This document shows, piece after piece, positions 29,232-62,983 of a stretch of DNA of 64,000 nt. The position numbers and the translations under genes are program-made. The stretch is from Mycolicibacterium fluoranthenivorans (GTDB lineage: Bacteria; Actinomycetota; Actinomycetes; Mycobacteriales; Mycobacteriaceae). The first letter of the stretch is position 1; every line of letters starts with the position of its first letter. The DNA is taken from positions 124,001-188,000 of the forward strand of contig NZ_JAANOW010000003.1 in assembly GCF_011758805.1 (NCBI RefSeq), given 5' to 3'. Below the pieces are notes generated by a model. The model had not been told where the DNA came from. It ran no database searches and worked only from the letters and a program-made list of their open reading frames with translations.

Positions 29232-29249
29232 TGCCGGAACGGTGCGGTG

Positions 29250-35179: not shown

Positions 35180-36715
35180 TCACCCGGCATGGCGCACCTG
35201 CCGCACCACGGCCGATAGTTCACGCCACGCCGCGGGTGCGAACAACGCCAGGCCGGCCGCGTAGAGCATCAGGTACCCGACACCCTCGCCCAACAGAACC
35301 GCCACACCCGCCAGGAAGCCCCGTTGATCGGAGTGGCTCACCAGGTGCTCGAGAAGGCCGAGCGCGATGGCCGCAGGCGCTGCCACCAGGACCGGCGGCC
35401 CCAGTCGGCTGGTCAACTCACCGAAGGTCACCCCAGCCAGAGGCCGGGCGAGCAGCAGGCTGAGCACGCCGGCGACCACGGACGACAACGACAGCGCCAG
35501 ACCGACTCCTGTCAGCCCGAGGGGCAACAGCGCGAACAGCAGGCAGATCCCCAGTACGCTGGTGAACAGCGTCACCCAGTTGAGTAGGTGGGTCCGGCCC
35601 GTCCCCTTGATCGACTCCATTCCGACGGCCATCAGCGCCACCCCCGGCCCGATTCCCGCGAGGGCCACCAGCATCACGCCCGCCCCTCGCCACTTCTCGC
35701 CGAGCAGCACCGTCACCCCCGGTTCACCCGCAGCGATGACGAAACCCGCCACCGGGACCATCAGGCCCCACAACAGCCCGAGGGCACGCAGGAACGCCGA
35801 CCGGAACCGCTCGGGATCTCCGGCCAACCGGGAGAAGGCCGGGAACAACACATATGAGCCGGCGTCGATGACGGCCGTCTCCGGCAGCGATCCGAGTCGC
35901 CGGCCGTAGCGGTAGTACCCGAGCGCGGTAGCGCTCAGCGCGCCGCCGACCACCGCCGTCTCCAACAGGTCGCGGGCCCGATTGACGACGGTCCAGACCA
36001 CCAGGGGCAGGGAGAACCTGGCCAGTTCCCGCCACAGCGCGAACGACGGCTTACCGCCGTCCGCACCTGGGCGCCAGCCGGCCAGCGTCCACGCGGTGAC
36101 CAGCCACGCCACCGTCGAGCAGTAGGTTCCGATGACCAGCCCCCACACCCCGAAACCGTTGATGCACAGAATGATCGACGTGCCGGCGAAAGTCAGCGCC
36201 ACGACGGGACGGACGATCAGCCGTTCCCGGAAGTCGAAGCGGCGCTGCATGAGCGCGTCCGGCACATAGGTGAGCGCGTGCAGGACGATCGTTCCCGCCG
36301 ACACCGCGGCGATCGCCCCCACGATGTCACTGGAGAAGATCCACGCGATCAGAGGGGCACTCGCCAAGGCCACCGCCGCCCAACCCACGCCGGCGAGCAG
36401 CGTCGCCCAGAAGACGGTGGTGGCGACATCGGCGATCCGGCCTTCGCGCTGCACCAGCGCGTTGGACATACCGGCCTCGGCGAACGTGGTGAGGAAGCCT
36501 GACAGCACCGTGCCGGCGGCGAACCACCCGACCTCGGCCGGTGCGAGCAGTCGCGCCAGCACCAGGGTCTGCACCAGCGATACCAACTGGGTGAAGACCA
36601 GCATCCCGGTCGCGATGGCGGCTCCGCGACGCAGTGTGCCCGACAGTGGACCCACCGATGAGCCCGGCACGCCCGCCACGGGTGCGCCGGTGTCCGCGCC
36701 GGCCGGGCTAGGCAC
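35180..36715 (-). CDS. Wzx-type oligosaccharide flippase
   Basis: A 511-residue polytopic protein of the MOP/Wzx (polysaccharide synthase) family with about twelve to fourteen membrane segments. Typical early features are LSGTLRRGAAIATGMLVFTQ, LVLARLLAPAEVGWFAAGTV and AGMSNALVQREGRIADVATT. It would translocate polyprenyl-linked repeat units for the Wzy-like polymerase encoded at 26-27 kb. GTG 36715 overlaps the upstream GT4 stop by 8 bp; the frame is open further but only over that gene. It is the last gene of the ~20 kb operon that begins near 54.87 kb. Confidence 0.88.
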   Translation of the reverse strand: MPSPAGADTGAPVAGVPGSSVGPLSGTLRRGAAIATGMLVFTQLVSLVQTLVLARLLAPAEVGWFAAGTVLSGFLTTFAEAGMSNALVQREGRIADVATTVFWATLLAGVGWAAVALASAPLIAWIFSSDIVGAIAAVSAGTIVLHALTYVPDALMQRRFDFRERLIVRPVVALTFAGTSIILCINGFGVWGLVIGTYCSTVAWLVTAWTLAGWRPGADGGKPSFALWRELARFSLPLVVWTVVNRARDLLETAVVGGALSATALGYYRYGRRLGSLPETAVIDAGSYVLFPAFSRLAGDPERFRSAFLRALGLLWGLMVPVAGFVIAAGEPGVTVLLGEKWRGAGVMLVALAGIGPGVALMAVGMESIKGTGRTHLLNWVTLFTSVLGICLLFALLPLGLTGVGLALSLSSVVAGVLSLLLARPLAGVTFGELTSRLGPPVLVAAPAAIALGLLEHLVSHSDQRGFLAGVAVLLGEGVGYLMLYAAGLALFAPAAWRELSAVVRQVRHAG

Positions 36716-37943
36716 TCTCCCCCTGTCCGGCAACGACTGTCGTGCTTGCCTCGGGCTCCCCGAACAGGGCCTGCCACGGACGACCGGTGACGTGCCAGGG
36801 ATAGTGCTCGTGCAGCAATGCGTTGGCATTCGCGCGCAACCTCAGCCGTCGGGTCGGATCATCGAGCAGACCCAGCACCGCGGTCACGAACTCGGCACCG
36901 CCGTCCGCGACGACCAGGTGTTCGCGGTGGCGCACACCGGGCAGCGCTTCGACGCCACGTGCCGTCGACACGACCGCGATCCCCAGCCCGAATGCCTCCA
37001 GCACCTTGTTCTTGAGCCCACTCCCGGTCTGCATCGGATTGACCATCACCGGATACCGGGACGCTTCCGCGCGCAGATCGGCCACGAAACCCGTCACCCG
37101 GACCAGTGGCTCCCGTTCGGCCAGCGCGGCCAGCCACGCCGGCGCGTTTCGGCCCATCACCGCGACCTCCACCCCGGCGGCTCGCAGCGCGGGAAACCAC
37201 ACCTCGTCGAAGAAGTAGCTCAGCGCGTGTGCGTTCGGCTCGAAATCCAGGTTGCCCCAGAACACCACCCCCCGCCGCTGCGCCGGTGGGGGCATGGGTG
37301 CGAGGAAGGCGTCGTCGACACCGTTGGGCACCGTGAACACGTTGGCTGCGGTACCGCTGCGCTTGACGATCTCGGCGGTGTCCACGTCACCCACCGTGGT
37401 CACCGCGTCGAACAGCGCGGGCAGCCGGGCTTCGGTGCGACGGGCCCGGTACAGGTCGAGGGCGTCTCGCCAGTTGCGGCCACCACGAAAGCCACCCGCG
37501 TGTGCGAAGGCACGGCTCTGTGTCAGCGCGGTGCTGTCACAGACGTCGAGCACCATCGAGCAGGACGGAATATCGCGCACCAGTTCGACGAGGCTCTCGC
37601 CGAATACGATCACCCGGCGGACGTCGCGTTCGGCCACCACGGCCGACAGCAGGCGGCGCGTAGCGGCGGCCTCGCGCGGCCTGCTCATGCGTAGGTAGCG
37701 CTGATTGTCCAGCCGCAGGTGCCTGCGCAGAGCCTGCGACCCGGTGAGAATCGGCGGGCACTCGGTCACGCTGGCGAACAATGCCGAGTTGTCCATCGTG
37801 GGTGTGCGGGCCGGCAGCGGGTAATGCGGTGCGACCACCAGGTGCCGCTCGTCGGGAACCAGCGCGCACAGCTGTGCCACCCGCAGGTCGTAGCCGCTGT
37901 GCAGCGTGTCCACCCGCGTCGAGGCAAGCACCAGGGTTGTCAC
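36708..37943 (-). CDS. GT4-like glycosyltransferase
   Basis: A 411-residue GT-B glycosyltransferase. The C-terminal donor domain shows VFWGNLDFEPNAHALSYFFD, YPVMVNPMQTGSGLKNKVLE with the family Glu, and the FGLGIAVVSTARGVEALPG loop. The N-terminal acceptor half is less conserved. It resembles the exosortase-linked 'sugar transferase/PEP-CTERM' group 1 enzymes. It sits 6 bp after ACP1 and overlaps the Wzx-type gene. The linkage made is unknown. Confidence 0.87.
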   Translation of the reverse strand: MTTLVLASTRVDTLHSGYDLRVAQLCALVPDERHLVVAPHYPLPARTPTMDNSALFASVTECPPILTGSQALRRHLRLDNQRYLRMSRPREAAATRRLLSAVVAERDVRRVIVFGESLVELVRDIPSCSMVLDVCDSTALTQSRAFAHAGGFRGGRNWRDALDLYRARRTEARLPALFDAVTTVGDVDTAEIVKRSGTAANVFTVPNGVDDAFLAPMPPPAQRRGVVFWGNLDFEPNAHALSYFFDEVWFPALRAAGVEVAVMGRNAPAWLAALAEREPLVRVTGFVADLRAEASRYPVMVNPMQTGSGLKNKVLEAFGLGIAVVSTARGVEALPGVRHREHLVVADGGAEFVTAVLGLLDDPTRRLRLRANANALLHEHYPWHVTGRPWQALFGEPEASTTVVAGQGESA

Positions 37944-37949
37944 GACGAC

Positions 37950-38243
37950 CTACCTCGCTCCCGCCGAGGGCAGCTGCGCGGGGTTCCGGGCCTGTTCCTC
38001 GACGAAGCCGGCGAGCGTGCCGATCGTCTCGAACACCTCACCCCTGAAGTCCTCGTCGTCGATCTCGAACCCGAACTCCCGTTCCAGCGCAACGGCCAAC
38101 GCGACCACGGCCATCGAATCGAGTTCGGGCATACCGCCGAACAGCGGCGTGGACGCCGTCAGCGTGTCGGCCCGGTCCTGGATGCCCAGTGTGCTGACGA
38201 TGACCGCGGTGACGCTGTCGAGGGTCGCCGAGCTGTACTCCAT
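37950..38243 (-). CDS. acyl carrier protein 1 (BtrI / exosortase-associated ACP type)
   Basis: A 97-residue carrier protein. The phosphopantetheine site is Ser43 in PELDSMAVVAL. DSM replaces the common DSL, as in the ACPs that accompany amino-acid-loading ligases and PLP decarboxylases. Helix III follows (EREFGFEIDDEDF). A strong AAAAGGAG Shine-Dalgarno sequence precedes the ATG. It lies 30 bp after the decarboxylase gene, which is preceded by the ligase gene. The likely role is to carry an amino acid thioester made by ligase 1 and modified by the decarboxylase before transfer by GNAT1. Confidence 0.9.
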   Translation of the reverse strand: MEYSSATLDSVTAVIVSTLGIQDRADTLTASTPLFGGMPELDSMAVVALAVALEREFGFEIDDEDFRGEVFETIGTLAGFVEEQARNPAQLPSAGAR

Positions 38244-38273
38244 CCTGTTCTCCTTTTCATCGCTCTGTGGTGG

Positions 38274-39500
38274 CTAGACGAGCACCTCAGCCGGATGCGG
38301 GTGGCCGAGAAACGCTGTCGGACTTGCGGTCAGGCCATACGCTCCGGCCTGGAACAGCACGATCAGGTCGCCGATATCGGCAGGTGGGAGCGCGACCTCG
38401 TCGCCGAGCAGGTCCAACGGGGTACACAGGCAGCCGACGACGGTGACGGGGCCCGCTGCCGGCTCGTCCATCCGGTTACCGACGGCGATCGGGTAGTTCC
38501 TGCGGATCACCTGACCGAAATTTCCCGATGCCGCCAACTGGTGGTGCATCCCACCGTCCACCACCAGGTAGTCGCGTCCACGCGAATGCTTGCGGTCGAC
38601 CACGCGGGTCACGTAGACCCCGCATTCTCCGACGAGGTAGCGGCCGAGCTCGACCACGACCGCTGCCTCCGGCAGGCACGCGGCGATCCGGGTTGCCATC
38701 AGTTCGGCCAGATTCGCTCCGATTGCGTCCAGGTCGACGGGGATGTCCTTGGCGAAGTACGGGATACCGAAACCGCCGCCGAGGTTGACGTAGCGGATGG
38801 GCGAGGGAAGCCGCTCGGCCAGCGCCACGATGAGATCGACGGTCCGGCGCTGGGCCTCACCCAGAATCGCCGCGTCGAGGTTCTGGGATCCGGCGAAGAC
38901 GTGGAAGCCGAGGAAGTCCACATCGGCCGCGACCAGGCGGGCCAGCAGGTGCGGCACCTGTTCCACGTCGACACCGAACTGCTGCGGGCCGCCACCCATG
39001 CGCATACCCGATCCCTTCACCCGGAAGTCCGGATTGACCCGCAATGCGACCCTCGGGCGAAAGCCCAGTCGGTCACCGATTTTCACCACCCGATCGACTT
39101 CGGTCGCCGACTCCATCTCGATGGTGACGCCGGCGGCGACCGCCTTCTCGATCTCGGCCTCGGTCTTGCCGGGCCCGGCGAAGCTCACCCGTTCCGCCGG
39201 CAGGACGGTATCCAGGACCGTCGCCATCTCCCCCGTCGACGCCACGTCCATCGCGTCCACCAGGCCGGCCAGGTGCTGGACGACGGCGGGCATCGGGTTG
39301 GCCTTGACGGCGTAACTCAGGTGGATCGCCTTCGGTAGCGCCGCGCGCAGCCGCTCGACCCGCGCGGTGAGCAGGGCCCGGTCATAGGCGAAGAACGGCG
39401 TGGTTCCCACTCGGGCGGCCAATCGCTGCAACGTCATTCCGCCGAGGCTCAACTGACCGTCGGCGGTGCCGAAGGTGGCGATGGTCGGGTGCTCGGTCAC
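38274..39500 (-). CDS. type III PLP-dependent decarboxylase (BtrK/TIGR03099-like)
   Basis: A 408-residue alanine-racemase-fold decarboxylase. The PLP Lys66 lies in HLSYAVKANPMPAVVQ. The FAGPGKTEAEIEKAV and GGGFGIPYF motifs and the second-domain Cys of VGCLCTPLDLL fit the DAP/ornithine decarboxylase group. The C-terminus AGAYGLTASPTAFLGHP is typical of the exosortase-A-associated subfamily rather than LysA. In butirosin synthesis the relative BtrK decarboxylates glutamyl-ACP. A similar carrier-bound reaction on ACP1 is inferred. It overlaps ligase 1 by 4 bp. Confidence 0.88.
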   Translation of the reverse strand: MTEHPTIATFGTADGQLSLGGMTLQRLAARVGTTPFFAYDRALLTARVERLRAALPKAIHLSYAVKANPMPAVVQHLAGLVDAMDVASTGEMATVLDTVLPAERVSFAGPGKTEAEIEKAVAAGVTIEMESATEVDRVVKIGDRLGFRPRVALRVNPDFRVKGSGMRMGGGPQQFGVDVEQVPHLLARLVAADVDFLGFHVFAGSQNLDAAILGEAQRRTVDLIVALAERLPSPIRYVNLGGGFGIPYFAKDIPVDLDAIGANLAELMATRIAACLPEAAVVVELGRYLVGECGVYVTRVVDRKHSRGRDYLVVDGGMHHQLAASGNFGQVIRRNYPIAVGNRMDEPAAGPVTVVGCLCTPLDLLGDEVALPPADIGDLIVLFQAGAYGLTASPTAFLGHPHPAEVLV

Positions 39501-41065
39501 GGCCCGAGTTCCTCACGCAGTCGCGCACGGTCGAACTTGCCGTTGGGTGAGCGCGGGATCTCCGCCCGCACCGAGACCGACGAGGGCACCATGTATCGCG
39601 GAACCCGCTTGCTCAATTCGCCGATCAGCGCACCCGTATCGAACCGGCCGGCCGTCGCCGGGGTCACCACCAGCTGGATCCGCTGGCCCAGGTCCTCATC
39701 GTCGACACCGAGGGCGACGGCGTCCCGGACCCGGCCCGTCTCATACACGACATCTTCGATCTCGGTCGGACTCACACGATAGCCGGACGTCTTGATCATC
39801 TCGTCCCGGCGCCCGACGAAATACAGGAAGCCGTCCTCGTCGGCGATCACGTTGTCCCCCGACCACACCGCCAGCTCTGGTGCCCGCCAGGGCATTTCCT
39901 GCCGTGGTACCGGACGGAACCGTTCCGCGGAGCGCGCCGGGTCGTTCCAGTAACCGAGTGCGACGAGTGCACCCCGGTGCACCAGCTCACCTTCCTCGCC
40001 CGGGTCGCACAACGAGCCGTCCGGCCGGACAACCAGTATCTGCGCACCGGGGATGGCTTTACCGATGGAGCCGGGCCGCCGATCCAGTTCGGCCGGATCG
40101 AGGTACGTCGACCGGAACGCCTCGGTCAGGCCGTACATGAGGTAGGGCCGCGCATCGGGGAAGACCGCGCGCAGCGTATCCAGGGTGGGCTTGGGCAGCC
40201 GGCCGCCGGTGTTGGCGAAGTACCGCAGGGAGCGGACGGCGTGCGGCGGCCACTTCTGCTCGGCGATCTGTACCCACAGCGGCGGGACACAGGTGAGCCC
40301 GGTGACGCCGTGCTGCGCACACAACCGCGGCACATCGCCGGGGAGCAGGTAGTCCATCAACACGACGTGGGCGCCCGCACTGAATGCGGTCGTCAACTGG
40401 CTGAAGCCGGCGTCGAAACTCAACGGCAACACGGCGAGAATCACGTCATCGGCCGAATTGCCCAGGTATTGTGCGACGCTCTCGGCACCGGCGATCAGGT
40501 TGCGATGGCTCAGCACCACACCTTTCGGCCTTCCGGTACTCCCCGACGTGTAGAAGATCGCGGCCATGTCGAGATCGATCGCCGCGGCGCGCGGTAGGCC
40601 GCCCCGCGGTGTGCACAGGCCCTCCCACGGGTGCACCGCATACCGGCAGGGCGGCGGGTCGTCCGGCAGCGCACCGACCACCACGACGTGCTCCAGGTCC
40701 GGGCATGTCTCCAGGTCGCCCCGAAGCAGCGCCCACCGTTCCGGTGAGGTCACCAGCACCGTGACAGCGCAGTCGACCAGGATGTGCCGCACTTGCGCGG
40801 ATCGCAGCAGCGGATTCACCGGTACGAACACGCCACCCGCCGCGGACGCCCCGAACACCGCAGCCACGGTCTCGACTCGCTTGTCGAGATAGACGGCCAC
40901 CCGTTGCTCGGCAGTCACACCGAGGGATGACAATCCGGCGGCCGCACCTCGGATCGAGGTCCACAACTCGCCGTAGCCGATGGTCTGATTCTTGACCGTC
41001 AGCGCCGGCGCCGCGGGATGTGATCGGGCACGGTGTTCGATCAGATGGTGCACATTGGTTCGCAT
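39497..41065 (-). CDS. AMP-forming acyl/aminoacyl-ACP ligase 1 (TIGR03098-like)
   Basis: A 522-residue ANL-superfamily ligase. Motif A3 is FYTSGSTGRPKGVVLSH, A5 is MYGLTEAFRST, the hinge is FVGRRDEMIKTSGYRVSPTE, and the catalytic Lys lies in SPNGKFDR. The subgroup resembles the exosortase-linked acyl-CoA ligase family found next to a PLP decarboxylase and ACP. It should adenylate a carboxylic or amino acid and load ACP1. The stop overlaps the decarboxylase ATG by 4 bp. Substrate specificity cannot be read with confidence. Confidence 0.88.
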   Translation of the reverse strand: MRTNVHHLIEHRARSHPAAPALTVKNQTIGYGELWTSIRGAAAGLSSLGVTAEQRVAVYLDKRVETVAAVFGASAAGGVFVPVNPLLRSAQVRHILVDCAVTVLVTSPERWALLRGDLETCPDLEHVVVVGALPDDPPPCRYAVHPWEGLCTPRGGLPRAAAIDLDMAAIFYTSGSTGRPKGVVLSHRNLIAGAESVAQYLGNSADDVILAVLPLSFDAGFSQLTTAFSAGAHVVLMDYLLPGDVPRLCAQHGVTGLTCVPPLWVQIAEQKWPPHAVRSLRYFANTGGRLPKPTLDTLRAVFPDARPYLMYGLTEAFRSTYLDPAELDRRPGSIGKAIPGAQILVVRPDGSLCDPGEEGELVHRGALVALGYWNDPARSAERFRPVPRQEMPWRAPELAVWSGDNVIADEDGFLYFVGRRDEMIKTSGYRVSPTEIEDVVYETGRVRDAVALGVDDEDLGQRIQLVVTPATAGRFDTGALIGELSKRVPRYMVPSSVSVRAEIPRSPNGKFDRARLREELGP

Positions 41066-41068
41066 CAG

Positions 41069-41977
41069 TCACCACCGCATACTCGTGAGTTCGCTGTAGA
41101 GATAATCGATTTGGTCCGCCCGCAGGGTGTCGCTGCGGTACATCTTCGCCCTGGGCGACACCTGCACCGACCCGGTGAAGCGCGCATCGACGACATGCGA
41201 TTCGATGAGCGTTGCCGGTAGGCCATGGTGCAGGAGGAGATGGCCGAACAGGTGGCGGCCGGTTTCCCGGAACAACCTCTGGTTGCCGACATGAACGAGT
41301 GCCGCGAACAACGGCAGGTTCTTCCGCCGGACACGCCGGAACATCACGTGACAGGTCTGCGCTCCGCGCACGATGACGGCATGCTCCACGGCGGCCGCGC
41401 CGGCATGGTCGAGATACACCGAGAGATCCTCTGCGCGAAGGCTCTTCTTGATGTCTTGGAAGTGCGACAACACCCGGACACCGTCCGAGCGGACGGGCCA
41501 CGGCACGTTGGGCACCATCACCGTGGACGTGTCCAGCGCAACGAAACCGAGCCGGGTGTTCAGCGCCTGCACATCGATTGACGGGGACAGGTCGGTGAAG
41601 TGATACCCCTGCTGGCGCAGCAGTGCGCGCAGCAGACGCACACCGTGCGATCGGTACGGCTGCGCCACACACCATGCCGCCAGATTGCAGAAACGCTCTG
41701 TTCTGCCGTCGATCCGCCGGTCGGAGTAGAAGGCCAGATGGGCGCCGACCACCTCGGCGCCGCACCGAAGCAGGAAACCGTGGTTGGGCTGGTCCACCGC
41801 CCACGTCGGAATGATCTGCGCGGACCAGCACTCCACGGGTACCCGCGGGTCGAGCTGATCATGCAGGAACTGGGCCACCTCCGGCAGATCCGCGACGGTG
41901 ATCGGCCCCAGTTCCACGGTGGGCTCGACCTCTGCGCCCATGCGCAGTGCCGACCCGTGACCGTCAGACGCCGACAT
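41069..41977 (-). CDS. GNAT-fold acyltransferase 1, predicted aminoacyl-ACP:sugar transferase
   Basis: A 302-residue GNAT-like protein, longer than usual because of a C-terminal extension of about 130 residues. Core segments are PNHGFLLRCGAEVVGAHLAF, ERFCNLAAWCV, YRSHGVRLLRALL and RLGFVALDTSTVMVPNVPW. The protein ends in DQIDYLYSELTSMRW. It is clearly paralogous to the protein at 55647-56492 throughout its length. It lies between ligase 1 (3 bp gap) and the deacetylase gene (14 bp overlap). A deacetylated amino sugar would be a natural acceptor. This function is inferred from context. Confidence 0.78.
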   Translation of the reverse strand: MSASDGHGSALRMGAEVEPTVELGPITVADLPEVAQFLHDQLDPRVPVECWSAQIIPTWAVDQPNHGFLLRCGAEVVGAHLAFYSDRRIDGRTERFCNLAAWCVAQPYRSHGVRLLRALLRQQGYHFTDLSPSIDVQALNTRLGFVALDTSTVMVPNVPWPVRSDGVRVLSHFQDIKKSLRAEDLSVYLDHAGAAAVEHAVIVRGAQTCHVMFRRVRRKNLPLFAALVHVGNQRLFRETGRHLFGHLLLHHGLPATLIESHVVDARFTGSVQVSPRAKMYRSDTLRADQIDYLYSELTSMRW

Positions 41978-43025: not shown

Positions 43026-43035
43026 CGTCATGCTC

Positions 43036-51309: not shown

Positions 51310-51329
51310 CGGTGCCGGCCCTCCCACCT

Positions 51330-52307: not shown

Positions 52308-52373
52308 TCCCGTCACTCTCCTTTTCCGTCCACGCGTGTGGGTTTCACGATCTCGAACGTCACGTCGCCCCCC

Positions 52374-53936: not shown

Positions 53937-53938
53937 GG

Positions 53939-54865: not shown

Positions 54866-54940
54866 GGCACGTCCGTCCCCGGCACCGCGGTGGGCCACGC
54901 CGGCGATCCCCCACCGCCATCAACAGCTAATTCGTCACGC

Positions 54941-55023: not shown

Positions 55024-55030
55024 GGACTAG

Positions 55031-55455: not shown

Positions 55456-55608
55456 TCACCACGAATCGGTGGACTCCCACAGCCGGCACTGCGGGATTCT
55501 CGATCGAAGACGCAACAGCAGTGCGATATTGATCGCTATCAGAATCCCGAACACGCCCACGGTGGCGATGCCGACAACCGCTACCGCACCCATGACAATT
55601 CCCACCAT
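55456..55608 (-). CDS. 50-residue small membrane peptide
   Basis: A 51-codon frame with ATG at 55608 and a GAGGGG Shine-Dalgarno sequence 8 bases upstream. The product has a single hydrophobic stretch of about 30 residues (VAVVGIATVGVFGILIAINI within it), then LLLRLRSRIPQ and a short polar tail ending TDSW. The positive-inside rule would place the C-terminus in the cytoplasm. It lies 38 bp after the GNAT2 stop on the same strand, so it is the last gene of the glmS operon. Function is unknown. It could be a membrane anchor or accessory of the acyltransferase or synthase complex. Confidence 0.65.
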   Translation of the reverse strand: MVGIVMGAVAVVGIATVGVFGILIAINIALLLRLRSRIPQCRLWESTDSW

Positions 55609-55646
55609 GGCAATCACCCCTCAGCACCGGCGAATTGGCCGACCGG

Positions 55647-56492
55647 CTACCACGGAACGCACGCCAGCTCGCTGTAGAGGTAGTCGATCTGCTTCGGTTC
55701 CAGACTCGGGCTGGAGTACATCTTCGGCCTGTTGTTCAGGCTGAAGGACAGCAGGGGCCGGTGTTCGATGGTGCGCAATTCAGCGAGGGTCGCCACCAGT
55801 CCCCGCCTGACCAACAAGTGGCGGGTCAGCGGGATTAACGAACGGTGGAACAGGTCAAGGTTGCTGACATGCAGGATCATCGCGTAGCCCAGTGCGCCCA
55901 TGTACCGGAACTCGCGGTACATGACGTGGCCGGACTCCTGACCACGGGTCAGGACGAGGTGCCGGGCGGCGAGCGCCTGTGCATGGTCGCGGTAGAGTGC
56001 CAGCCCCGATCCGACCAGTGACCGTTCGATCACGTCCGGATCGGCACTGATCCTCGTGCCACACCGGAAGGTCGGCCACGGCAGATTGGGAATGAGAGCG
56101 GCCGAGGTGTCCAGATAGCGAAACTTCAACCAGGCCAGAATCTCCCGAGGCCCCTCTTTCGGGGACAGACTGGTGAAGTGAAAGCCCTCCTGCGCCAACA
56201 TCGCGTTGAGCAGAGACATGCTCTCGCCGCGGTATTCGGGCAACACGCACCACGAGCCCATGTTGCAGAACCGTTCCAGCCGGCCCGCCACCAACCGCTC
56301 GGAGTACAGAGCCAGCAGGACGCCCACGACGCGCTCCCCGTCACGGAGCATGAATCCGTGATTGGGGGCCTTATCCTCCCACGGAGCCGAACACGATGCG
56401 GTCCAAGGAGTCCGGTCATTGTGATTGGTCCGAAGGAACTCCGCGGCCACCGCGATGTCGGCGTCCGTGATCGGACTCACCTCGGCTGTCAT
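55647..56492 (-). CDS. GNAT-fold acyltransferase 2, paralogue of GNAT1
   Basis: A 281-residue GNAT-like protein. ATG 56492 overlaps the aminomutase stop as ATGA; a GTG 12 bases upstream is less likely. It parallels the 41069-41977 protein in order and motif: PNHGFMLRDGERVVGVLLAL, ERFCNMGSWCV, HFTSLSP, YLDTSAALIPNLPWP, RGQESGHVMYREFR and a terminal KQIDYLYSELACVPW. Lying beside a lysine 2,3-aminomutase and a carrier-protein loading system, it is the candidate to transfer beta-lysine from the carrier to a sugar amine. This role is inferred. Confidence 0.78.
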   Translation of the reverse strand: MTAEVSPITDADIAVAAEFLRTNHNDRTPWTASCSAPWEDKAPNHGFMLRDGERVVGVLLALYSERLVAGRLERFCNMGSWCVLPEYRGESMSLLNAMLAQEGFHFTSLSPKEGPREILAWLKFRYLDTSAALIPNLPWPTFRCGTRISADPDVIERSLVGSGLALYRDHAQALAARHLVLTRGQESGHVMYREFRYMGALGYAMILHVSNLDLFHRSLIPLTRHLLVRRGLVATLAELRTIEHRPLLSFSLNNRPKMYSSPSLEPKQIDYLYSELACVPW

Positions 56493-57934
56493 CGGTCCCC
56501 GCACACCGTTGACGTCACCGGCCGAACGTGCGGTGAGTCATTGTCCCGCCACCATGCCTGCCCGGATTCCGGCAGACTGCCCACTGGGTCGTAGAACGGG
56601 TAGACACGGTTCAGGGCACCGACATCCGCAGCGTCCAAACCGGTGCGGTAGTTCTTGGTCCAGTAGGAGATCCCCAGGTCGCGGTCGTAGCGGACCGCCT
56701 GATGCACCCACCGCTTACCGACATACGGCACATCGCAGACGATTCGCGGTGTCGCGAAACCCGGCAGATAGCCCATGATCGACAACTGCAACTGCTGCGC
56801 TTGCCACAGCGGGGTCCGCCAGTGCTCCGCACTGGGCACCATGTCGCACATGTAGAAGTAGTACGGCAGGATTGCCGCTTCGCCCTGTAGAGCGAAGCAC
56901 AGGTCCAGCAGATCGTCAGCAGTGTCATTCACGCCGCGCATCAGCACGCCCTGGTTGCGCACATCTCGCAGCCCCGCGCCGAGCAGGGCCCGCGCCGCCG
57001 CGGCAACCAGCGGAGTCACCGACCGCACGTGGTTGATATGGGTGTGCAGCGCGAGGTTGACGCCACGGGCGGCGGCCAGCTGAGCGACGCGACCCACGCC
57101 GTCGACGACCTTCGGCTGAAGCCAATGCTGGGGCAGCGCGGCCAACGCCTTGCTCGCCAGCCGGATATCACGGATGGTGTCGATGTCGAGTAGCTGCGCG
57201 ACAAACGATTCCAGCCGCGGCCAGGGCACATTGGCCACGTCTCCGCCGGATACCACGACATCACGCACGGACGGTGTGGCTCGCAGGTAATCCAGCATTC
57301 GGCCCTGCCGTTCCGCCGGACTGAGCGTCAGCCTGGCCTTGCTGACCGTGGGTGTGGAGTTGCCGACCAGATCCATCCGGGTGCAATGCCCGCAGTACTG
57401 CGGGCAGGTCGACAGCAGCTCGGCGAGTACCTTGGTCGGGTACCGGTGGGTCAGTCCCTCCACCACCCACATATCGCTTTCGTGTAGCGAATCCCGTTCG
57501 GCGTAGGGGTGCGATTCCCACACCGGCTCTCGGTCGCTGAGGACTGGCAACATGTAACGCCGGACCGGATCGGTGTAGAAGGCCTCCGTCAACCAACGGC
57601 GCTCCGGCGCACAGTGCGCGGCCATGGTGTTGAGCATCTGCGGCGGCACCAGCATCGACATGGTCGCCCGCTGTTGCTGATCGGCGGCCAGATCGGCGTA
57701 GAACCCATCGTCGAGCAGGTCGCCCACCACGGCGCGTAGCTGGTCGATGGTCTTGACGGAGTGCGCCCGCTGCCATTGCGGATCGTGCCACTGCGCCTCG
57801 GTGACCAGTGCCCAGCCCGGGTAGCGCCGCCAGTCCGGCTCTGAAAGATTCCTGCGTACATAGGTATACGGCTGATCTACCGCCGCGGCGAATCCGGCCC
57901 GCTCGGGTTCGATGGCTTCGGTCAGTGACGTCAT
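56489..57934 (-). CDS. lysine 2,3-aminomutase (radical SAM, PLP)
   Basis: A 481-residue KamA-family enzyme that converts L-lysine to beta-lysine. The radical-SAM cluster is Cys177, Cys181 and Cys184 (CPQYCGHC). SGGD at about 229-232 is the SAM motif. The PLP lysine is probably Lys407 in DVPYVGKRW, replacing the PGGGGK of clostridial enzymes. Asp337 (GVND) and Asp364 (YMCDMV) align with the two aspartates that bind the lysine side-chain amine in the clostridial enzyme, which favours lysine over glutamate. ATG 57934 overlaps the oxidase stop by 4 bp. Relatives make beta-lysine for antibiotics such as viomycin and streptothricin. Confidence 0.9.
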   Translation of the reverse strand: MTSLTEAIEPERAGFAAAVDQPYTYVRRNLSEPDWRRYPGWALVTEAQWHDPQWQRAHSVKTIDQLRAVVGDLLDDGFYADLAADQQQRATMSMLVPPQMLNTMAAHCAPERRWLTEAFYTDPVRRYMLPVLSDREPVWESHPYAERDSLHESDMWVVEGLTHRYPTKVLAELLSTCPQYCGHCTRMDLVGNSTPTVSKARLTLSPAERQGRMLDYLRATPSVRDVVVSGGDVANVPWPRLESFVAQLLDIDTIRDIRLASKALAALPQHWLQPKVVDGVGRVAQLAAARGVNLALHTHINHVRSVTPLVAAAARALLGAGLRDVRNQGVLMRGVNDTADDLLDLCFALQGEAAILPYYFYMCDMVPSAEHWRTPLWQAQQLQLSIMGYLPGFATPRIVCDVPYVGKRWVHQAVRYDRDLGISYWTKNYRTGLDAADVGALNRVYPFYDPVGSLPESGQAWWRDNDSPHVRPVTSTVCGDR

Positions 57935-59319
57935 CTGGACAGCACCTTCTCCGAGACAGGTGTCCGTTCGTCGCCGTGGATCAGCTCGGCCGCGACCCGC
58001 CGGCCCGATCTGATCGCACCCTCCATCAACCCGAAGAACTCCAGACTGGTTTCGGTGCCACACCAGTGCACGTGGCCGTGCGGATCGGTCAGCGTCGGCC
58101 CCAGGTTCAACCAGTCGCCCGGACCGAACAGGGCGGCATAGCATCCCCTGCTGTACTTCTCGGCAAGCCAGTCCGTCACGGTGCACTGCGTCGGCGCCGG
58201 CAACTGCGGGAAGATCCGGCCGATGTGCGCCAGGGCCGCATCCCGTTGTGCTGTCGCCGACAGCGCGGAGAATGCGGTTGCCGCCGCGCCGGTGACAAAA
58301 CCGGTCAGCACACCGGCTGAGCCATCCGGCGGAGAGTCGTCGACCGTGGACAGCAAGGGCCCGTTCGTACTCACCGACCATCCGGACAAGCCGAACTCAC
58401 GCCACAGCGGGGCCGGATAGCCCAGTTGCACCTTGACCGCGCAACCGCGACCGGTGACCGCCGTCGCGCGCAGCGCACGCAGAGCGGGCCGGAACTCGAT
58501 TCGCTGCGCCAACAGCGGTGGCACGGCGAGCACCACCCGGTCCGCTCGATACCGAGAACGGGCACCGGACGCCCCATCACATTGGACCACCACGTCGCCG
58601 GCGCTCTGCTCGATTGCGCACACCGGCTGCCCCATCCGAACCCGTGCGCCGAGCCGTTCGGCGAGTGCCTGGCACAGCAACTGCGCGCCGCCGTCGATCC
58701 GCCATTCCTGCGCCCCACCCTCGAAGGCGTTGAGATAGCGGATACCCCCGCCGGACCTCAGATAGAAAGCCATGTGCAGGACGGAGATCGCGGCCGGATC
58801 GGCCGCCATCATCTCGCCGAGAAACAACGGGAAGAAGGTGCGCGCGTCCGGATGGCGAATCTCGCGGGCCAGCCAGCTTGCCGCAGACAGGCGATCGAGC
58901 ACGCCCGCGTCGGCGCTCTGCCACGGCGCATCCGGGCGGACATCGGCCACGAGTTCGTCGAGGCGATCGAACATGCCACCGAGCGCAACCGCGTCCAGCG
59001 GGGGCATCCGGCTGGCGCTGGTGGTCCGGCGGCCCGACAGCAGGAATGTGCTGTCCCCGGTCATCGTGGCCGGAACCAGTCTGAGCCCGTGCTCGCCCAC
59101 CAGTGCCAGCAGTTCGGTGTGCCGTGCGCCGAGATACGCAGCGCCCCCGTCGGCCGTGACACCGCCGGGCATCGAGACGCCGTGGATGCGACCACCCACC
59201 CGGTCCCGTGCCTCCAGCACGGTCACCTCCGCGCCCGCGGCCACCAGATCGAGAGCCGCCGTCAATCCCGCCAGACCAGCACCGACGACCAGAACGCGCA
59301 TGCCGGCCGCTGCGTTCAT
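57931..59319 (-). CDS. FAD-dependent amine oxidase
   Basis: A 462-residue flavoprotein of the monoamine/polyamine oxidase family. The dinucleotide motif VLVVGAGLAGLTAALDLVAA and EARDRVGGRIHG start the protein. The C-terminal FAD segment is HVHWCGTETSLEFFGLMEGA. ATG 59319 overlaps the carrier-protein stop by 4 bp. It lies between the carrier protein and the aminomutase, so it probably oxidises an amino group on lysine, beta-lysine or a carrier-bound derivative. Which nitrogen is attacked is unknown. A bona fide polyamine oxidase elsewhere in metabolism is a less likely alternative. Confidence 0.85.
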   Translation of the reverse strand: MNAAAGMRVLVVGAGLAGLTAALDLVAAGAEVTVLEARDRVGGRIHGVSMPGGVTADGGAAYLGARHTELLALVGEHGLRLVPATMTGDSTFLLSGRRTTSASRMPPLDAVALGGMFDRLDELVADVRPDAPWQSADAGVLDRLSAASWLAREIRHPDARTFFPLFLGEMMAADPAAISVLHMAFYLRSGGGIRYLNAFEGGAQEWRIDGGAQLLCQALAERLGARVRMGQPVCAIEQSAGDVVVQCDGASGARSRYRADRVVLAVPPLLAQRIEFRPALRALRATAVTGRGCAVKVQLGYPAPLWREFGLSGWSVSTNGPLLSTVDDSPPDGSAGVLTGFVTGAAATAFSALSATAQRDAALAHIGRIFPQLPAPTQCTVTDWLAEKYSRGCYAALFGPGDWLNLGPTLTDPHGHVHWCGTETSLEFFGLMEGAIRSGRRVAAELIHGDERTPVSEKVLSR

Positions 59320-59537
59320 TGCGCCACCGCGATCACTTTGGTGAACAGCCCTTCCGCCGAAGGGCTTTCGCTGAAATCGTCCCATGACAACTCCACCCCG
59401 AAGTCCCGCGCGATCGCGCTGAGCACCCGGGTGGCCAACAGTGAATCACCGCCGAGTTCGAAGAAGTCGGAGTGCGGGCCCACCTCGCGGGTGTTGAGCA
59501 CCCTACGGAAGATCTCGACGATATGGTCTGCGCTCAT
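59316..59537 (-). CDS. peptidyl carrier protein 2
   Basis: A 73-residue stand-alone carrier protein of the NRPS type. The phosphopantetheine Ser32 lies in FFELGGDSLLATRVLSAI, the standard PCP motif, unlike the DSM of ACP1. Both ends overlap neighbours by 4 bp (amine oxidase and adenylation enzyme), which implies equal expression. It would be loaded by the adenylation enzyme encoded immediately upstream. Confidence 0.92.
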   Translation of the reverse strand: MSADHIVEIFRRVLNTREVGPHSDFFELGGDSLLATRVLSAIARDFGVELSWDDFSESPSAEGLFTKVIAVAQ

Positions 59538-61093
59538 CGCTCTGCTCCTTGGCTTCGGTGATCCTCGGCGGCCCGCTGCGTTGCCGCTCGATCGACTTTT
59601 CCGCTCGTGGTGTACTTCATCGAGGTGACGAATGAGATTCTGCTGGGCACGAATTGGCTCGGCAGGCGTTGACGTAGGTAATGCTTGAGCTCACCCGAGG
59701 TGGTCGGCGCGACCGCGACCACGTACGCCGCCAACGAGGTGCGGCCCAGTACCCGTTCACCGACGACGACCGCGCCTCCGACAGCGGGGTGCGTGATCAA
59801 CTGCGTCTCGATCTCGGCCGGATGTACCCGCACACCAGAGACTTTCACCTGTTCGTCGATGCGGCCGCGCGGATACAGCAGACCGTTCTCCCCCCGGGCG
59901 ACCAGATCCCCGGTGCGGAACCACCGTTGCGGTCCGCAGTCGCGATCGGCGAGCGGGAATGCGGCCGCGGTGAGTTCCGGAGACCCGAGGTATCCGTCTG
60001 CCAGGCTGGGGCCCGCCACCAGCAACTCACCTTCGTCGGTCACATGGTCGCGCACATGCGGCAGCCTGCGGCCGAGCGGCGCCTCGGCAGCCTCGGCCGC
60101 GACTTCCGGCTCGGTCCCGGGACCGGCCAGCTGGACGGCATGGGTGATCATTGTCGTCTCGGTGCAACCGTAGGTGTTCAGCAGTGTGACGTGACCGATG
60201 CCGAGTTCGCGCCACTGCCGCAGCCGGGTCGGATCGACCCGCTCACCGCCGATCACGACCAGCCGGACGCAAGCCGGTAGCGTCGCGTGTTCTTCGTGTA
60301 GGAAGTACACCAGCTCGTGCCAGAATGCCGTCGGTAGGTCGAGCACGGTGATACCGAGCTCGGCCAGCATGCGCACGAAGGCAGGGAATGAACCGGAGTG
60401 TGCGATATCGTCGAAAACCAGTGCCGCGCCGGATGTCAGCGCGGGCAGTATCTCCTCCAGGCAGGTATCCCAACCCAGCGAGGCGAATTGGAGCACACGG
60501 TCGTCAGGCGTGAGATCGAAGAGCCGGCGCAACGCCCGCACCGTGACCGACAGCGCATATCGTGATACGACAACGGGTTTCGGCACTCCGGTGGAACCCG
60601 AGGTGCAGAGCACGTAGGCCGCGTCGGCCGGCCGACAGATCGGCTGTGGTGATCCGGTATCCGCTGCCGCAATCTTCTTGTCAAGGATTTTGACCTGCAG
60701 TTCCGCCGTTCCGCACATGCCGGGGACGGTGGCATACAGATGCTCGATACCGAGCACCGCAGCCAGACTCTGTATCCGGGCGTCCGGGAGGGCGGCAGCG
60801 ATCGGGCTGTACGCTGCGCCGGCCTGCAATATCCCGATCAGGTGCTCCACCATCGCGGGCGTATGAGTGACCAGAGCACCGACAGGACGAGACGAACTCC
60901 CGGCTCCGCCGGCGCGATAGCACGTTGCCGTCTCCCGAATGCGTTCTGCGAGCTGCTGGTAGCTGATCGTTGTCCCGTTGTGCACGATGGCAGTGCGTTC
61001 CGGCCAGTCACGGGCCGCGGCGGCGAAGTCGTCGACCACGTCGCGCCACGTGGTCGACGAGCCTGTCACGGTGGCTGCCCCGATCGAATTCAT
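59534..61093 (-). CDS. stand-alone adenylation enzyme (NRPS A-domain type)
   Basis: A 519-residue A-domain. Core motifs are A3 LCTSGSTGVPKPVVVS, A4 region LGWDTCLEEILPAL (retaining an Asp where alpha/beta-amino binding occurs), A5 LNTYGCTETTMI, A7 RWFRTGDLVAR, A8 GRIDEQVKVSGVRVHPAEIE and A10 TTSGKVDRAA. The VLDLPTAFWHEL segment is typical of free-standing amino-acid-activating A-domains. It should activate an amino acid, probably beta-lysine or a derivative given the aminomutase, and load PCP2. It lies 15 bp downstream of glmS. Confidence 0.9.
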   Translation of the reverse strand: MNSIGAATVTGSSTTWRDVVDDFAAAARDWPERTAIVHNGTTISYQQLAERIRETATCYRAGGAGSSSRPVGALVTHTPAMVEHLIGILQAGAAYSPIAAALPDARIQSLAAVLGIEHLYATVPGMCGTAELQVKILDKKIAAADTGSPQPICRPADAAYVLCTSGSTGVPKPVVVSRYALSVTVRALRRLFDLTPDDRVLQFASLGWDTCLEEILPALTSGAALVFDDIAHSGSFPAFVRMLAELGITVLDLPTAFWHELVYFLHEEHATLPACVRLVVIGGERVDPTRLRQWRELGIGHVTLLNTYGCTETTMITHAVQLAGPGTEPEVAAEAAEAPLGRRLPHVRDHVTDEGELLVAGPSLADGYLGSPELTAAAFPLADRDCGPQRWFRTGDLVARGENGLLYPRGRIDEQVKVSGVRVHPAEIETQLITHPAVGGAVVVGERVLGRTSLAAYVVAVAPTTSGELKHYLRQRLPSQFVPSRISFVTSMKYTTSGKVDRAATQRAAEDHRSQGAER

Positions 61094-61108
61094 GGCACTG
61101 CTCCCGAC

Positions 61109-62896
61109 TCACTCGACCGTCACGGATTTGGCGAGATTCCGCGGTTTGTCCACGTCGCGCCCCAGGGCCAGCGCCATCGTGCGGGCCAGTATCTGCAGCG
61201 GTACCGTCGCCGCGATCGGGCCCCACGGCGCGGCGGGATCATCGACGACCGGTATGGCGCCACCAGCGCACCCGACCGTGATGACATGACCACCGCGGGC
61301 TCGAACCTCCGCGACGTTACCGGCGAGCTTCGGGTCGCCGTTGTCGATGACGATCACGGGCGTGCCCACACCGACCAGAGCGAGCGGTCCGTGCTTGAGT
61401 TCTCCGGCCGGATAGTGCTCGGCCCACCTGTAGGTGAGTTCCTTGAGTTTGAGCGCACCTTCGGCCGCGTACGGCAGCCCCAGTCCCCGTCCGATGAAGA
61501 TGAATCCGGCCTCGGCTGCGAATTGGTCGACGAGCGGCGGGATGACGCATTTGGCGACGGCACTCGCGGCGGCCAGCTGGTCCGGCACACGACGGAGATC
61601 GTCGACGAGTGCCGCGGCCGACCGGGCCGAGACCCGATTCATCCCTACCAGAGCCGAGATCATCAGCGCCGCAGCGGAGATGACCTGGCAGATGAAAGTC
61701 TTGGTGGCGGCCACACCGATCTCGGGCCCGGCTGAGCTTCCGACGACGGCGTCCGCCAACCGGGCCAGCGTGGACTGCGGGTTGTTGGTGAGTGCGAGCA
61801 CGGGCGAGATACCGACCGCGCCGGTCTGCACGCCCCGCAACACATCAGCCGTCTCACCGGACTGACTCATGGCTACAACCAGCTGCGCTGTATCCGGGAC
61901 TTCTTGTGCCGCTTCGCTTCCGCTGACCGTGGTCGTGGGAACCCCGCCGAGCCGGCGTGCCAGGTTGGCGAGCACATTCCCGGCATTCAGGGACGTCCCG
62001 CAACCGATCACCCGCAGCCGCTCGAACGGTGGCAGGTTCAGCTGCTCCCAGAGCGCACCGTTGGCGATGCCGTCCGCAAGTTCGTCGAGCACCCGGGCTG
62101 CCGCCTCGGGTTGTTCGTCGATCTCCTTGGCCATGTAGTCCGTGTAACCGTTCAACTCGACATCCCGGCCGCGCCATGGGCAGCGGGTGAGTGCGGGCGG
62201 CGGTATGACGATCCCACCGCGACGCCAACTGTCAGGGCGTGCGAGTTCGACGATATCGCCGTCACCGAGCACCCGGTATTCGTCGACCCAATCCGCGATC
62301 GCCGCAATATCGCTCGCGGCGAAGTCACCTTCTGCCGTGTGTCCGACCACCAGTGGGGAACCCTTGGCGGCGACGATGATTCGGCCGCTGCCCTGCTCCA
62401 ACACCGCAAGCGCCCATGAGCCGTGCACGCGGGCCAGCGCGTTCTGCAGCGCCCGGACCAGATCAGTGCCGCGCCGCCGCTCGTCCTCGATCAGATGGCA
62501 CAGAACTTCGCTGTCCACCGTGGTGACGAAAGTGTGTCCGGCACGATCCAGTTCAGCACGCAGGCTGGCCGCGTTCTCCACGATCCCGTTGTGCACCAAG
62601 CTGATCTGTCCGGCGCAGTCGACATGTGGGTGGGCATTGCCTTCGGTCACCGCGCCATGGGTCGCCCACCGCGTATGGCCGATCCCGGCCCCGTCGAACC
62701 GGGGGCCCGCCCAATCGTCGAGCAGAGCTTCCAGGGCTCCGATGCGGCCGGTCGTTCGAAGTCGGGCGATATCGCCGCCGGTCGTCCGCAGCGCCATGCC
62801 GACCGAGTCGTATCCGCGGTACTCGAGCCGGCGCAGCCCCACCCGAAGATATTCGACGGCAGAGCCTTCCGTCCGGCATGCGATGATGCCGCACAT
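61109..62896 (-). CDS. glmS: glutamine-fructose-6-phosphate aminotransferase, locus-dedicated copy
   Basis: A 595-residue GlmS. Cys2 of MCGIIACRTEG is the glutaminase nucleophile, which fixes the start at ATG 62896. Two SIS domains follow, with GCGTSLNAGNVLANLA and MSQSGETADVLRGV, and the C-terminal DKPRNLAKSVTVE. It makes glucosamine-6-phosphate, the precursor of UDP-GlcNAc. As glmS is essential and usually located near glmM or other housekeeping genes, this copy is probably an extra one that boosts amino-sugar supply for the polymer. It heads the operon behind promoter copy B. Confidence 0.92.
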   Translation of the reverse strand: MCGIIACRTEGSAVEYLRVGLRRLEYRGYDSVGMALRTTGGDIARLRTTGRIGALEALLDDWAGPRFDGAGIGHTRWATHGAVTEGNAHPHVDCAGQISLVHNGIVENAASLRAELDRAGHTFVTTVDSEVLCHLIEDERRRGTDLVRALQNALARVHGSWALAVLEQGSGRIIVAAKGSPLVVGHTAEGDFAASDIAAIADWVDEYRVLGDGDIVELARPDSWRRGGIVIPPPALTRCPWRGRDVELNGYTDYMAKEIDEQPEAAARVLDELADGIANGALWEQLNLPPFERLRVIGCGTSLNAGNVLANLARRLGGVPTTTVSGSEAAQEVPDTAQLVVAMSQSGETADVLRGVQTGAVGISPVLALTNNPQSTLARLADAVVGSSAGPEIGVAATKTFICQVISAAALMISALVGMNRVSARSAAALVDDLRRVPDQLAAASAVAKCVIPPLVDQFAAEAGFIFIGRGLGLPYAAEGALKLKELTYRWAEHYPAGELKHGPLALVGVGTPVIVIDNGDPKLAGNVAEVRARGGHVITVGCAGGAIPVVDDPAAPWGPIAATVPLQILARTMALALGRDVDKPRNLAKSVTVE

Positions 62897-62983
62897 CATC
62901 GGGCCCCGCGATCGGATTCTGCGCACCTCTGATCGAGTGCCACCAGCGACCATTCGGCGGCCTCCTGAGTTAATCCCCCAAAC

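Follow-up and report, generated by a model that had tools for sequence, protein, structure and literature searches.

The 64-kb window analysed here (G000:C3:124001-188000, the whole stretch of DNA under study, taken from the 6.4 Mb genome of Mycolicibacterium fluoranthenivorans) carries a polysaccharide locus in which two carrier-protein-based amino-acid modules lie among genes for building and exporting a polymer. Module 1 (37950-41977) comprises genes for an acyl carrier protein (ACP1), a pyridoxal phosphate (PLP)-dependent decarboxylase (DEC1), an AMP-forming ligase (LIG1) and a GNAT-type protein (GNAT1), whereas module 2 (55647-61093) comprises those for an adenylation enzyme (LIG2), a peptidyl carrier protein (PCP2), a flavin amine oxidase, a KamA-type aminomutase and a second GNAT-type protein (GNAT2). 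Judged from the sequence, this is probably a Wzx/Wzy-type locus whose two cytoplasmic modules charge and edit amino acids and transfer them to sugar amines of the polymer before export. This reading draws on the gene content, the operon-like packing, the catalytic residues and substrate pockets that are kept, and the match between transferase clade and module type, all of which can be read directly from the data; the acceptor, the acid used by module 1 and the oxidase step are its least certain parts. An earlier note on this DNA had proposed both gene sets and their placement in one polysaccharide locus, and these proposals held: profile searches recovered every member except the two transferases, GNAT1 being recognised by structural modelling and GNAT2 by its identity to GNAT1, and the sets recur in other genomes. 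That note overlooked that both transferases belong to a single family, with 43% identity between them.

Gene functions were assigned by Pfam and NCBIfam profile scans of the window proteins, with NCBIfam matches judged against family cut-offs (Table 1). A train of minus-strand genes runs from 62953 down to 35180 in the order GlmS, module 2, sugar genes, module 1 and Wzx, and the genes between the modules encode two short-chain dehydrogenase/reductase (SDR) proteins, an initiating transferase, GT4-type glycosyltransferases (GTs), a lyase, a nucleotide-sugar dehydrogenase and a CE4 deacetylase. Every module gene except the two transferases matches a Pfam or NCBIfam family, the weakest match being that of the ACP (E 4.5e-8). 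Adjacent genes overlap by ATGA at LIG2/PCP2, PCP2/oxidase, oxidase/KamA and KamA/GNAT2, and by GTGA at LIG1/decarboxylase. The initiating transferase, NDP-sugar dehydrogenase, CE4 deacetylase and GlmS claimed by the earlier note are all present by Pfam or NCBIfam; of the Wzx, Wzy and Wzz components that it placed in the same range, Wzx does lie inside, but Wzy and a Wzz-like protein are encoded outside the train on the plus strand. Since the Wzy and Wzz-like genes of Mycobacterium sp. NAZ190054 lie inside the gene train, and AsnB lies beside Wzx there, all three probably belong to the locus of the window. The window has the initiating transferase, Wzx and Wzy of a Wzx/Wzy-dependent exopolysaccharide (EPS) locus. 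A Wzz identity for the gene at 45575-47788 was ruled out, its product being a Heparinase II/III-type lyase.

LIG1 and DEC1 score above the cut-offs of TIGR03098 and TIGR03099, respectively, two families that NCBI names "exosortase A system-associated" and classes as hypoth_equivalog with no role given; the window's own genome has no match (0) to the exosortase profile PF09721. The PDB chains nearest to DEC1 are those of BtrK (246.9 and 246.6 bits; next chain 160.8), one of which carries the PDB name L-glutamyl-[BtrI acyl-carrier protein] decarboxylase, so that the analogy with butirosin drawn in the earlier note is upheld. DEC1 is also nearer to BtrK than to diaminopimelate (DAP) decarboxylases (246.9 against 160.8 bits), and a DAP or ornithine decarboxylase identity for 38274-39500 was rejected on the lower scores.

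For the substrate-binding core of LIG1, the nearest PDB chains are those of VinN (106.0 and 104.4 bits; next 62.7). According to a review (PMC11253843), VinN Asp230 binds the amine of the substrate, while Lys330 and Arg331 sit in a shortened loop facing Phe231 and Ser299. LIG1 has D218 opposite VinN Asp230, T286 opposite Ser299 and R318 opposite Arg331, and Asp, Thr and Arg are found at these positions in 50/50 rows (conservation rows being sequences with at least 45% identity, or 60% for KamA, and 80% coverage, with the window included and matches below these limits or with stops left out). The alignment with VinN is gap-free around Asp230 and around the shortened beta13-beta14 loop that carries Arg331; VinN Phe231 and Lys330 are replaced by A219 and F317, and hence the acid need not be 3-methyl-aspartate. 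The serine of ACP1 is kept in 30/30 rows. As described in PMC11284099, VinN places 3-methyl-aspartate on the carrier VinL, and decarboxylation by VinO requires the prior thioester. By analogy with this order of loading and decarboxylation, the likely product of module 1 would be beta-alanyl-ACP or gamma-aminobutyryl (GABA)-ACP.

The KamA-type enzyme of module 2 is closest to lysine 2,3-aminomutase among six NCBIfam families, and its sole PDB match is the L-lysine 2,3-aminomutase 2a5h, in an alignment that reaches all key positions except the last Lys. The seven key positions (CxxxCxxC, Arg134, Asp293, Asp330 and Lys337) are kept in 19/19 rows; they comprise the three cysteines, the arginine that follows, the two aspartates (Asp293 and Asp330) that bind the lysine side chain, and the PLP lysine (Lys337). 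A glutamate 2,3-aminomutase identity was rejected, since that profile gives 99.1 bits where the lysine type gives 157.4 and the Asp pair is kept. The specificity pocket of LIG2 reads D-T-E-D-V-G-T-M-I-K, with GrsA positions assigned by eye, and among 17 rows its D, T, E, D, G, T and K are constant, with variation limited to V/I, M/L and I/V. D209 (code position 1) and E213 (position 3), again placed by eye, are present in 17/17 rows, as in adenylation domains for diamino acids: in the diamino-acid enzyme PosA, according to PMC10522769, the alpha-amine is held by the Asp of position 1, and the side-chain amine by the Glu of position 3 with assistance from a Thr and a Ser. LIG2 possesses the Asp, Glu and Thr of this pocket. 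Together with the lysine-binding positions of KamA, this bears out the parallel with beta-lysine antibiotics suggested in the earlier note. DTEDVGTMVK is reported to be a beta-lysine code; a search of open-access literature returned no mention of DTEDVGTMVK or DTEDVG.

The serine of PCP2 is kept in 17/17 rows, and the PDB chains nearest to the amine oxidase are monoamine, cyclohexylamine and putrescine oxidases. Since LIG2 retains acidic residues to pair with both amines, loading probably precedes the oxidase step, in which case the group delivered by module 2 would be an aldehyde or a cyclic imine rather than a dication. The earlier suggestion of a cationic coat is therefore not supported as it stood: an oxidase of the monoamine oxidase (MAO) family accompanies module 2 and would remove an amine, which leaves "cationic" uncertain.

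Neither GNAT1 nor GNAT2 has a Pfam or NCBIfam match, acetyltransferase families included. An AF2 model of GNAT1 (pLDDT 91.7) predicts a tandem GNAT protein with an Eis/NMT-like fold, and GNAT2 is presumed to be GNAT-type from its identity to GNAT1. In M. iranicum and M. vaccae (L039 9983-15873; L113 4718-12247), two module-1 transferases flank one ACP-decarboxylase-ligase set, an arrangement that perhaps reflects two acceptor positions for one donor. In Rhodococcus sp. JCM 9791 (L083 6675-7522; L014 3882-5251), the transferase and the oxidase are each split over two frames, through either sequencing error or decay.

We scanned 84,980 species genomes for the transferase using two short peptide patterns and obtained 75 loci in Actinomycetota, Rhizobiales, Burkholderiales and one Magnetococcales record, distant relatives being missed with only two such patterns. 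Transferase and module 1 occur together in other Actinomycetota, Rhizobiales and Burkholderiales. Within 8 kb, parts of module 1 are present in 55/75 loci, parts of module 2 in 18/75 and neither in 2/75, and no locus (0/75) has both modules beside one transferase. Ligase, decarboxylase and ACP all fall within this distance in 47/55 loci, and all four module-2 partners in 14/18. Among the four incomplete module-2 loci, two have the oxidase and two the ligase and oxidase away from the locus, all of them encoded elsewhere in the genome; one of the four non-local oxidase copies (4/4 found), that of G251, has an internal stop. The idea that the oxidase is an optional extra, which arose from its absence beside KamA in L072, L080, L081 and L082, was rejected on its presence elsewhere in those genomes.

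The phylogeny of the transferases points to the same pairing. The tree comprised 76 rows, of which 74 came from the loci and two from the window, and was inferred by a quick method that gave a long-branch warning for L089, L085 and L084. The module label changes once on it, and 0/500 shuffles yielded a count as low; three rows of less than 200 aa (L025, L034 and the second piece of L083) had been left out. The module-2 clade (support 80), to which Trebonia kvetii is sister (support 91), contains rows from Mycobacteriaceae, Nocardiaceae or Gordoniaceae, except for one that is misassigned in the taxonomy table. The transferase is present in 4/251 Mycobacteriaceae genomes and the KamA clade (E <= 1e-100) in 5/251, namely the same four and one with a match cut at a contig end. 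Among 346 genomes drawn from across the phylum, two had a TIGR03099 match above cut-off, both with a transferase nearby, and three had the transferase; the third has transferase, ACP and AsnB-type genes on a 9.5 kb contig without ligase or decarboxylase. This draw gave no new module-1 record beyond the 75 loci. Exosortase genes were found in 2/10 transferase genomes searched (those of L084 and L086, both Burkholderiales) and were absent in 8/10; if contig numbers denote the same records, the two may lie ~12-14 kb from the transferase loci. Five loci (L038, L041, L056, L059 and L079) have decarboxylase and ACP with no TIGR03098-like match, and a weak match to LIG2 (26-33%) nearby.

Polysaccharide genes surround most of these loci. 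Among the 68 loci of at least 19 kb (7/75 shorter ones were left out), searched by tblastn with proteins of the window and of a Gordonia locus (L047), at least one such gene was detected in 61/68, compared to 2/20 control stretches of 20 kb drawn at random from six genomes of the window's genus. A CE4 deacetylase match was obtained in 33/68 loci and 0/20 controls, and with the window proteins alone as queries the count was 54/68 loci against 2/20 controls. In the Gordonia locus itself, a GT2, a CE4 deacetylase and a GH39-like protein are encoded around module 2. Two large proteins with no Pfam match are encoded upstream of module 2 in that locus (1772-5331), and one or both are matched in 12/75 loci, L047 included. 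Inspection by eye revealed no clear signal peptide in the deacetylase of the window, which would fit cytoplasmic deacetylation and aminoacylation before export.

Of the named loci, that of Mycobacterium sp. NAZ190054 matches the window best, with 51-84% identity over matched genes. M. aurum encodes on one strand LuxR, GlmS, LIG2, PCP2, oxidase, SDR, Wzz-like protein, Wzy, GT, lyase, dehydrogenase, Wzx, GT and deacetylase, and on the other GNAT2, KamA, initiating transferase and SDR, so that module 2 is split over ~25 kb; it has no module 1 at the locus and no LIG1 elsewhere in its genome. A 20 kb stretch of M. bacteremicum (L072), compared for genes other than that of PCP2, is arranged as in M. 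aurum, again with parts of module 2 and without module 1. The gene order of M. aurum differs from that of the window minus module 1 in that Wzx lies between the dehydrogenase and a GT, and for this reason we do not claim a simple insertion of module 1 into an M. aurum-type locus. Of the 18 module-2 genomes, 16 were searched for LIG1 (E <= 1e-120), which was present in 2/16 (NAZ190054 and M. vaccae) and lacking in 14/16. The M. vaccae copy of LIG1 sits on a separate contig, within the module 1 that has two transferases. The earlier note had held that modules unlinked in expression would defeat its proposal; at the level of gene content, unlinking is partly borne out by these 14 genomes.

Taken as a whole, the gene set suggests the following course of events. 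GlmS, the sugar enzymes and the CE4 deacetylase would provide a lipid- or nucleotide-linked sugar with a free amine. The VinN-like LIG1 would attach aspartate or glutamate to ACP1 through the side-chain carboxyl, the BtrK-like DEC1 would strip the free alpha-carboxyl to leave beta-alanyl- or GABA-ACP, and GNAT1 would transfer the resulting group. In module 2, KamA would produce beta-lysine and LIG2 would load it onto PCP2; the amine oxidase would convert its terminal amine to an aldehyde, which may close to a five-membered cyclic imine, either on the carrier or after transfer, and GNAT2 would transfer the beta-lysine-derived group. Wzx, Wzy and the Wzz-like protein would then export and polymerise the decorated unit, uronic acid included. 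A broader proposition, to which we give only a small chance, is that these loci represent a widespread and unrecognised class of carrier-dependent EPS aminoacylation, built on one tandem-GNAT family with interchangeable editing enzymes, and that the two decorations could cross-link the coat: free primary amines from module 1 and the aldehyde or cyclic imine from module 2 could react together, in the manner of the oxidised lysines that cross-link collagen.

Several observations weigh against these proposals. Among the genomes covered here, module 2 is known only from the three families named above, and its pairing with a transferase clade consequently counts as one event. The KamA-type enzyme is far below the cut-off of the lysine 2,3-aminomutase equivalog TIGR03820 (157.4 against 525.4 bits), and when LIG1 is compared over its full length, gramicidin synthetase LgrA, in which two domains add up, comes first among PDB chains and VinN seventh. 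In NAZ190054 only 43 bases separate LIG1 from ACP1, which leaves no place for a decarboxylase there, and a complete module 1 is found elsewhere in that genome. At L048 8109-10855, Trebonia kvetii has a TIGR03098 ligase (741.7 bits), an ACP and a transferase, with decarboxylase and KamA not found, and perhaps transfers an unedited acid. Seven of the 68 loci have no polysaccharide gene by the queries used, and the controls are mycobacterial only, whereas the loci are of mixed kinship. Furthermore, 17 genomes of family f18 in the phylum-wide draw encode a TIGR03099-like decarboxylase (408.8-423.7 bits, below cut-off) and have no transferase match, which argues against an obligate link; in the one f18 genome looked at (G330, L112 7356-18739), the ligase-decarboxylase pair has three FemAB genes and one for a MurJ-like flippase as neighbours.

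That last arrangement, in which the ligase scores 594.0 bits with TIGR03098 (cut-off 592.35) and the decarboxylase 423.6 bits, below cut-off, lends some weight to the view that the target of aminoacylation is a different component of the envelope, for instance peptidoglycan cross-bridges or a lipid, and that the modules share a neighbourhood with polysaccharide genes. The modelled tandem GNAT architecture of the transferase agrees with this view as well, since FemX is likewise a tandem GNAT protein. However, L112 has no match to the transferase or to ACP1, and 61/68 transferase loci carry GT, Wzx, CE4 or similar genes; we consider this acceptor unlikely. Similarly improbable is that the carrier-bound amino acids join a small secreted molecule of aminoglycoside or streptothricin type, the polysaccharide neighbourhood being incidental. 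Antibiotic pathways are known to use either kind of editing, with BtrK and VinN as the nearest PDB chains, yet none of the 22 genes scanned between 35180 and 62953 encodes a condensation, thioesterase or polyketide synthase (PKS) domain, Wzx, the initiating transferase and five GTs share the gene train, and polysaccharide genes are enriched as described above.

A competing view confined to module 2, which we regard as a possible though not the favoured outcome, is that plain beta-lysine is delivered and that the oxidase has another role, for instance clearing misloaded or excess lysine. Acidic residues of LIG2 at both amine-binding code positions known from PosA (PMC10522769) suggest that the loaded acid probably keeps both amines; against this, the oxidase gene is flanked by those of PCP2 and KamA and overlaps each of them by ATGA, and the enzyme is retained in all four genomes in which it is not beside KamA, notwithstanding the internal stop of the G251 copy. 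It is very hard to credit, finally, that these are ordinary acyl-CoA ligase and acetyltransferase genes of an EPS locus with ligases that activate fatty acids, an outcome that the earlier note had named as fatal to its proposal. Although NCBI calls TIGR03098 an acyl-CoA ligase, each ligase adjoins a carrier protein of its own, LIG2 has an amino-acid pocket of the non-ribosomal peptide synthetase (NRPS) type, and the VinN-type Asp/Arg pocket of LIG1, on which fatty-acid activation by this enzyme was ruled out, is not what a fatty-acid ligase would be expected to have.

The proposed aminoacylation of a polysaccharide has parallels in several known systems. Each enzyme type is already known, and so is the aminoacylation of surface polymers from a carrier protein: DltABCD, acting on teichoic acids with D-alanine, and AlmEFG, acting on lipid A with glycine, likewise combine an adenylation enzyme, a carrier and a transferase to decorate a surface polymer (PMC12930378). 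Unlike these, the window has two modules and two predicted edited residues, and no Pfam match to DltB (MBOAT) or DltD was found among the locus proteins scanned, the rest of the genome not having been searched. To our knowledge, Dlt and Alm use other transferases and involve no editing on the carrier. Module 1 resembles vicenistatin VinN/VinO/VinL, in which, according to PMC11284099, an acidic amino acid is loaded onto a stand-alone carrier and decarboxylated there by a PLP enzyme, and it resembles butirosin BtrK/BtrI through DEC1; those systems feed a polyketide or an aminoglycoside, whereas here the product would go to a polysaccharide through a tandem GNAT protein. For module 2, a KamA-family enzyme also feeds an activating enzyme in epsilon-poly-beta-lysine synthesis (PMC10522769) and in EF-P beta-lysylation. 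Beta-lysine systems of this kind pass their product to the core of an antibiotic, to a peptide chain or to a lysine of a protein. Viomycin and streptothricin follow the same scheme of KamA-family and activating enzymes, and we know of no amine oxidase in these two systems, in epsilon-poly-beta-lysine synthesis or in EF-P modification.

The locus shares an initiating transferase, GTs, Wzx, Wzy and a Wzz-like protein with Wzx/Wzy-dependent EPS loci, to which it adds two aminoacyl modules with dedicated carriers. LIG1 and DEC1 belong to the pair of families associated with exosortase A (XrtA), but the window genome and 8/10 transferase genomes lack an exosortase and the partner transferase falls outside Pfam and NCBIfam. 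Open-access literature listings yielded no role for the TIGR03098/TIGR03099 pair, no mention of the transferase family as its partner and no module that combines a lysine aminomutase with an amine oxidase to serve a polysaccharide, and among the open-access papers listed, no beta-lysine-bearing polysaccharide is described in the titles and the beginnings of abstracts. The terms ligase, TIGR03098, acyl-CoA, asparagine synthetase, acyltransferase and FemAB do not occur in Haft 2006 (PMC1569441). The earlier view, framed in terms of a mycobacterial polymer, needs changing: the system extends to other Actinomycetota, Rhizobiales and Burkholderiales, and LIG1 and DEC1 fall in known exosortase-associated families.

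Table 1. Features of the window, listed in the order of the minus-strand gene train, followed by plus-strand genes.
Feature	Coordinates	Strand	Basis and remarks
LuxR-type regulator, possibly of the locus	63057..63962	-	PF00196; related regulators lie close to module 2 in M. vaccae and M. aurum
GlmS, glutamine-fructose-6-phosphate transaminase (amino-sugar supply)	61109..62953	-	TIGR01135 535.3 bits, cut-off 418.05
LIG2, stand-alone NRPS-type adenylation enzyme, module 2	59534..61093	-	PF00501, PF13193
PCP2, peptidyl carrier protein, module 2	59316..59537	-	PF00550; LGGDSL motif
MAO/putrescine-oxidase-type flavin amine oxidase, module 2	57931..59319	-	PF01593; best PDB match monoamine oxidase 8p84
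KamA-family radical SAM aminomutase, module 2	56489..57934	-	PDB 2a5h; TIGR03820 best NCBIfam, below cut-off; no Pfam match
GNAT2, putative aminoacyl transferase, module 2	55647..56492	-	43% identical to GNAT1
NDP-sugar epimerase/dehydratase (SDR)	53939..54898	-	PF01370
Initiating polyprenyl-phosphate sugar-phosphate transferase	52374..53936	-	TIGR03025 418.4 bits, cut-off 295.55
NDP-sugar epimerase/dehydratase (SDR)	51330..52316	-	PF01370
Glycosyltransferase, GT4 type	50218..51372	-	PF13692
Glycosyltransferase, GT4 type	49070..50227	-	PF00534
Glycosyltransferase, GT4 type	47730..49073	-	PF13692
Heparinase II/III-type polysaccharide lyase	45575..47788	-	PF07940, PF16889
Nucleotide-sugar dehydrogenase (uronic acid supply)	44241..45578	-	TIGR03026 365.9 bits, cut-off 189.8
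Glycosyltransferase, GT4 type	43036..44244	-	PF00534
CE4 polysaccharide deacetylase	41964..43031	-	PF01522; no clear signal peptide by eye; may expose acceptor amine
GNAT1, putative aminoacyl transferase, module 1	41069..41977	-	AF2 tandem-GNAT model
LIG1, AMP-forming putative amino acid:ACP ligase, module 1	39497..41065	-	TIGR03098 733.9 bits, cut-off 592.35
DEC1, PLP decarboxylase, module 1	38274..39500	-	TIGR03099 580.8 bits, cut-off 478.45
ACP1, acyl carrier protein, module 1	37950..38243	-	PF00550
Glycosyltransferase	36708..37943	-	PF13692; TIGR03087 below cut-off
Wzx-type flippase	35180..36829	-	PF13440, PF01943
AsnB-type glutamine amidotransferase	29247..31109	+	PF00733; TIGR01536 491.5 bits, cut-off 267.1
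Wzy/O-antigen-ligase-type polymerase	26246..27736	+	PF04932
Wzz/Wzc-like chain-length protein, weak assignment	24550..26322	+	TIGR01007 44.5 bits, cut-off 108.05; two hydrophobic segments by eye; no Pfam match

Next to GNAT2, ~750 bases (54899-55646) contain no recognised gene, only an 85-aa open reading frame without a Pfam match; this gap may hold a promoter that splits the gene train, and a promoter scan of 53900-64000 detected no promoter-like site. On the minus strand at 33715-34932, a predicted protein that begins with a hydrophobic segment and ends in a tail rich in Pro, Ala and Thr has no Pfam or NCBIfam match. The genes at 13134-22382 are unremarkable and encode a DEAD-box helicase, an HMGL-like aldolase, an FAA hydrolase, an FAD-binding dehydrogenase and a MaoC hydratase.

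These results provide a candidate role for the TIGR03098/TIGR03099 pair, which NCBI carries as hypothetical equivalogs of exosortase-linked loci, and bring to attention a transferase family for which Pfam and NCBIfam have no model. They also lead to the prediction that bacterial coats contain amide-bound beta-amino acids. The existence of relatives with one kit or the other suggests, as far as sequence comparison can indicate, a general way of changing bacterial coat chemistry, for which species with a related locus minus module 1 offer natural comparison strains. The charge of the coat and its possible cross-linking would bear on biofilms, flocs and the attachment of environmental actinobacteria and rhizobia.

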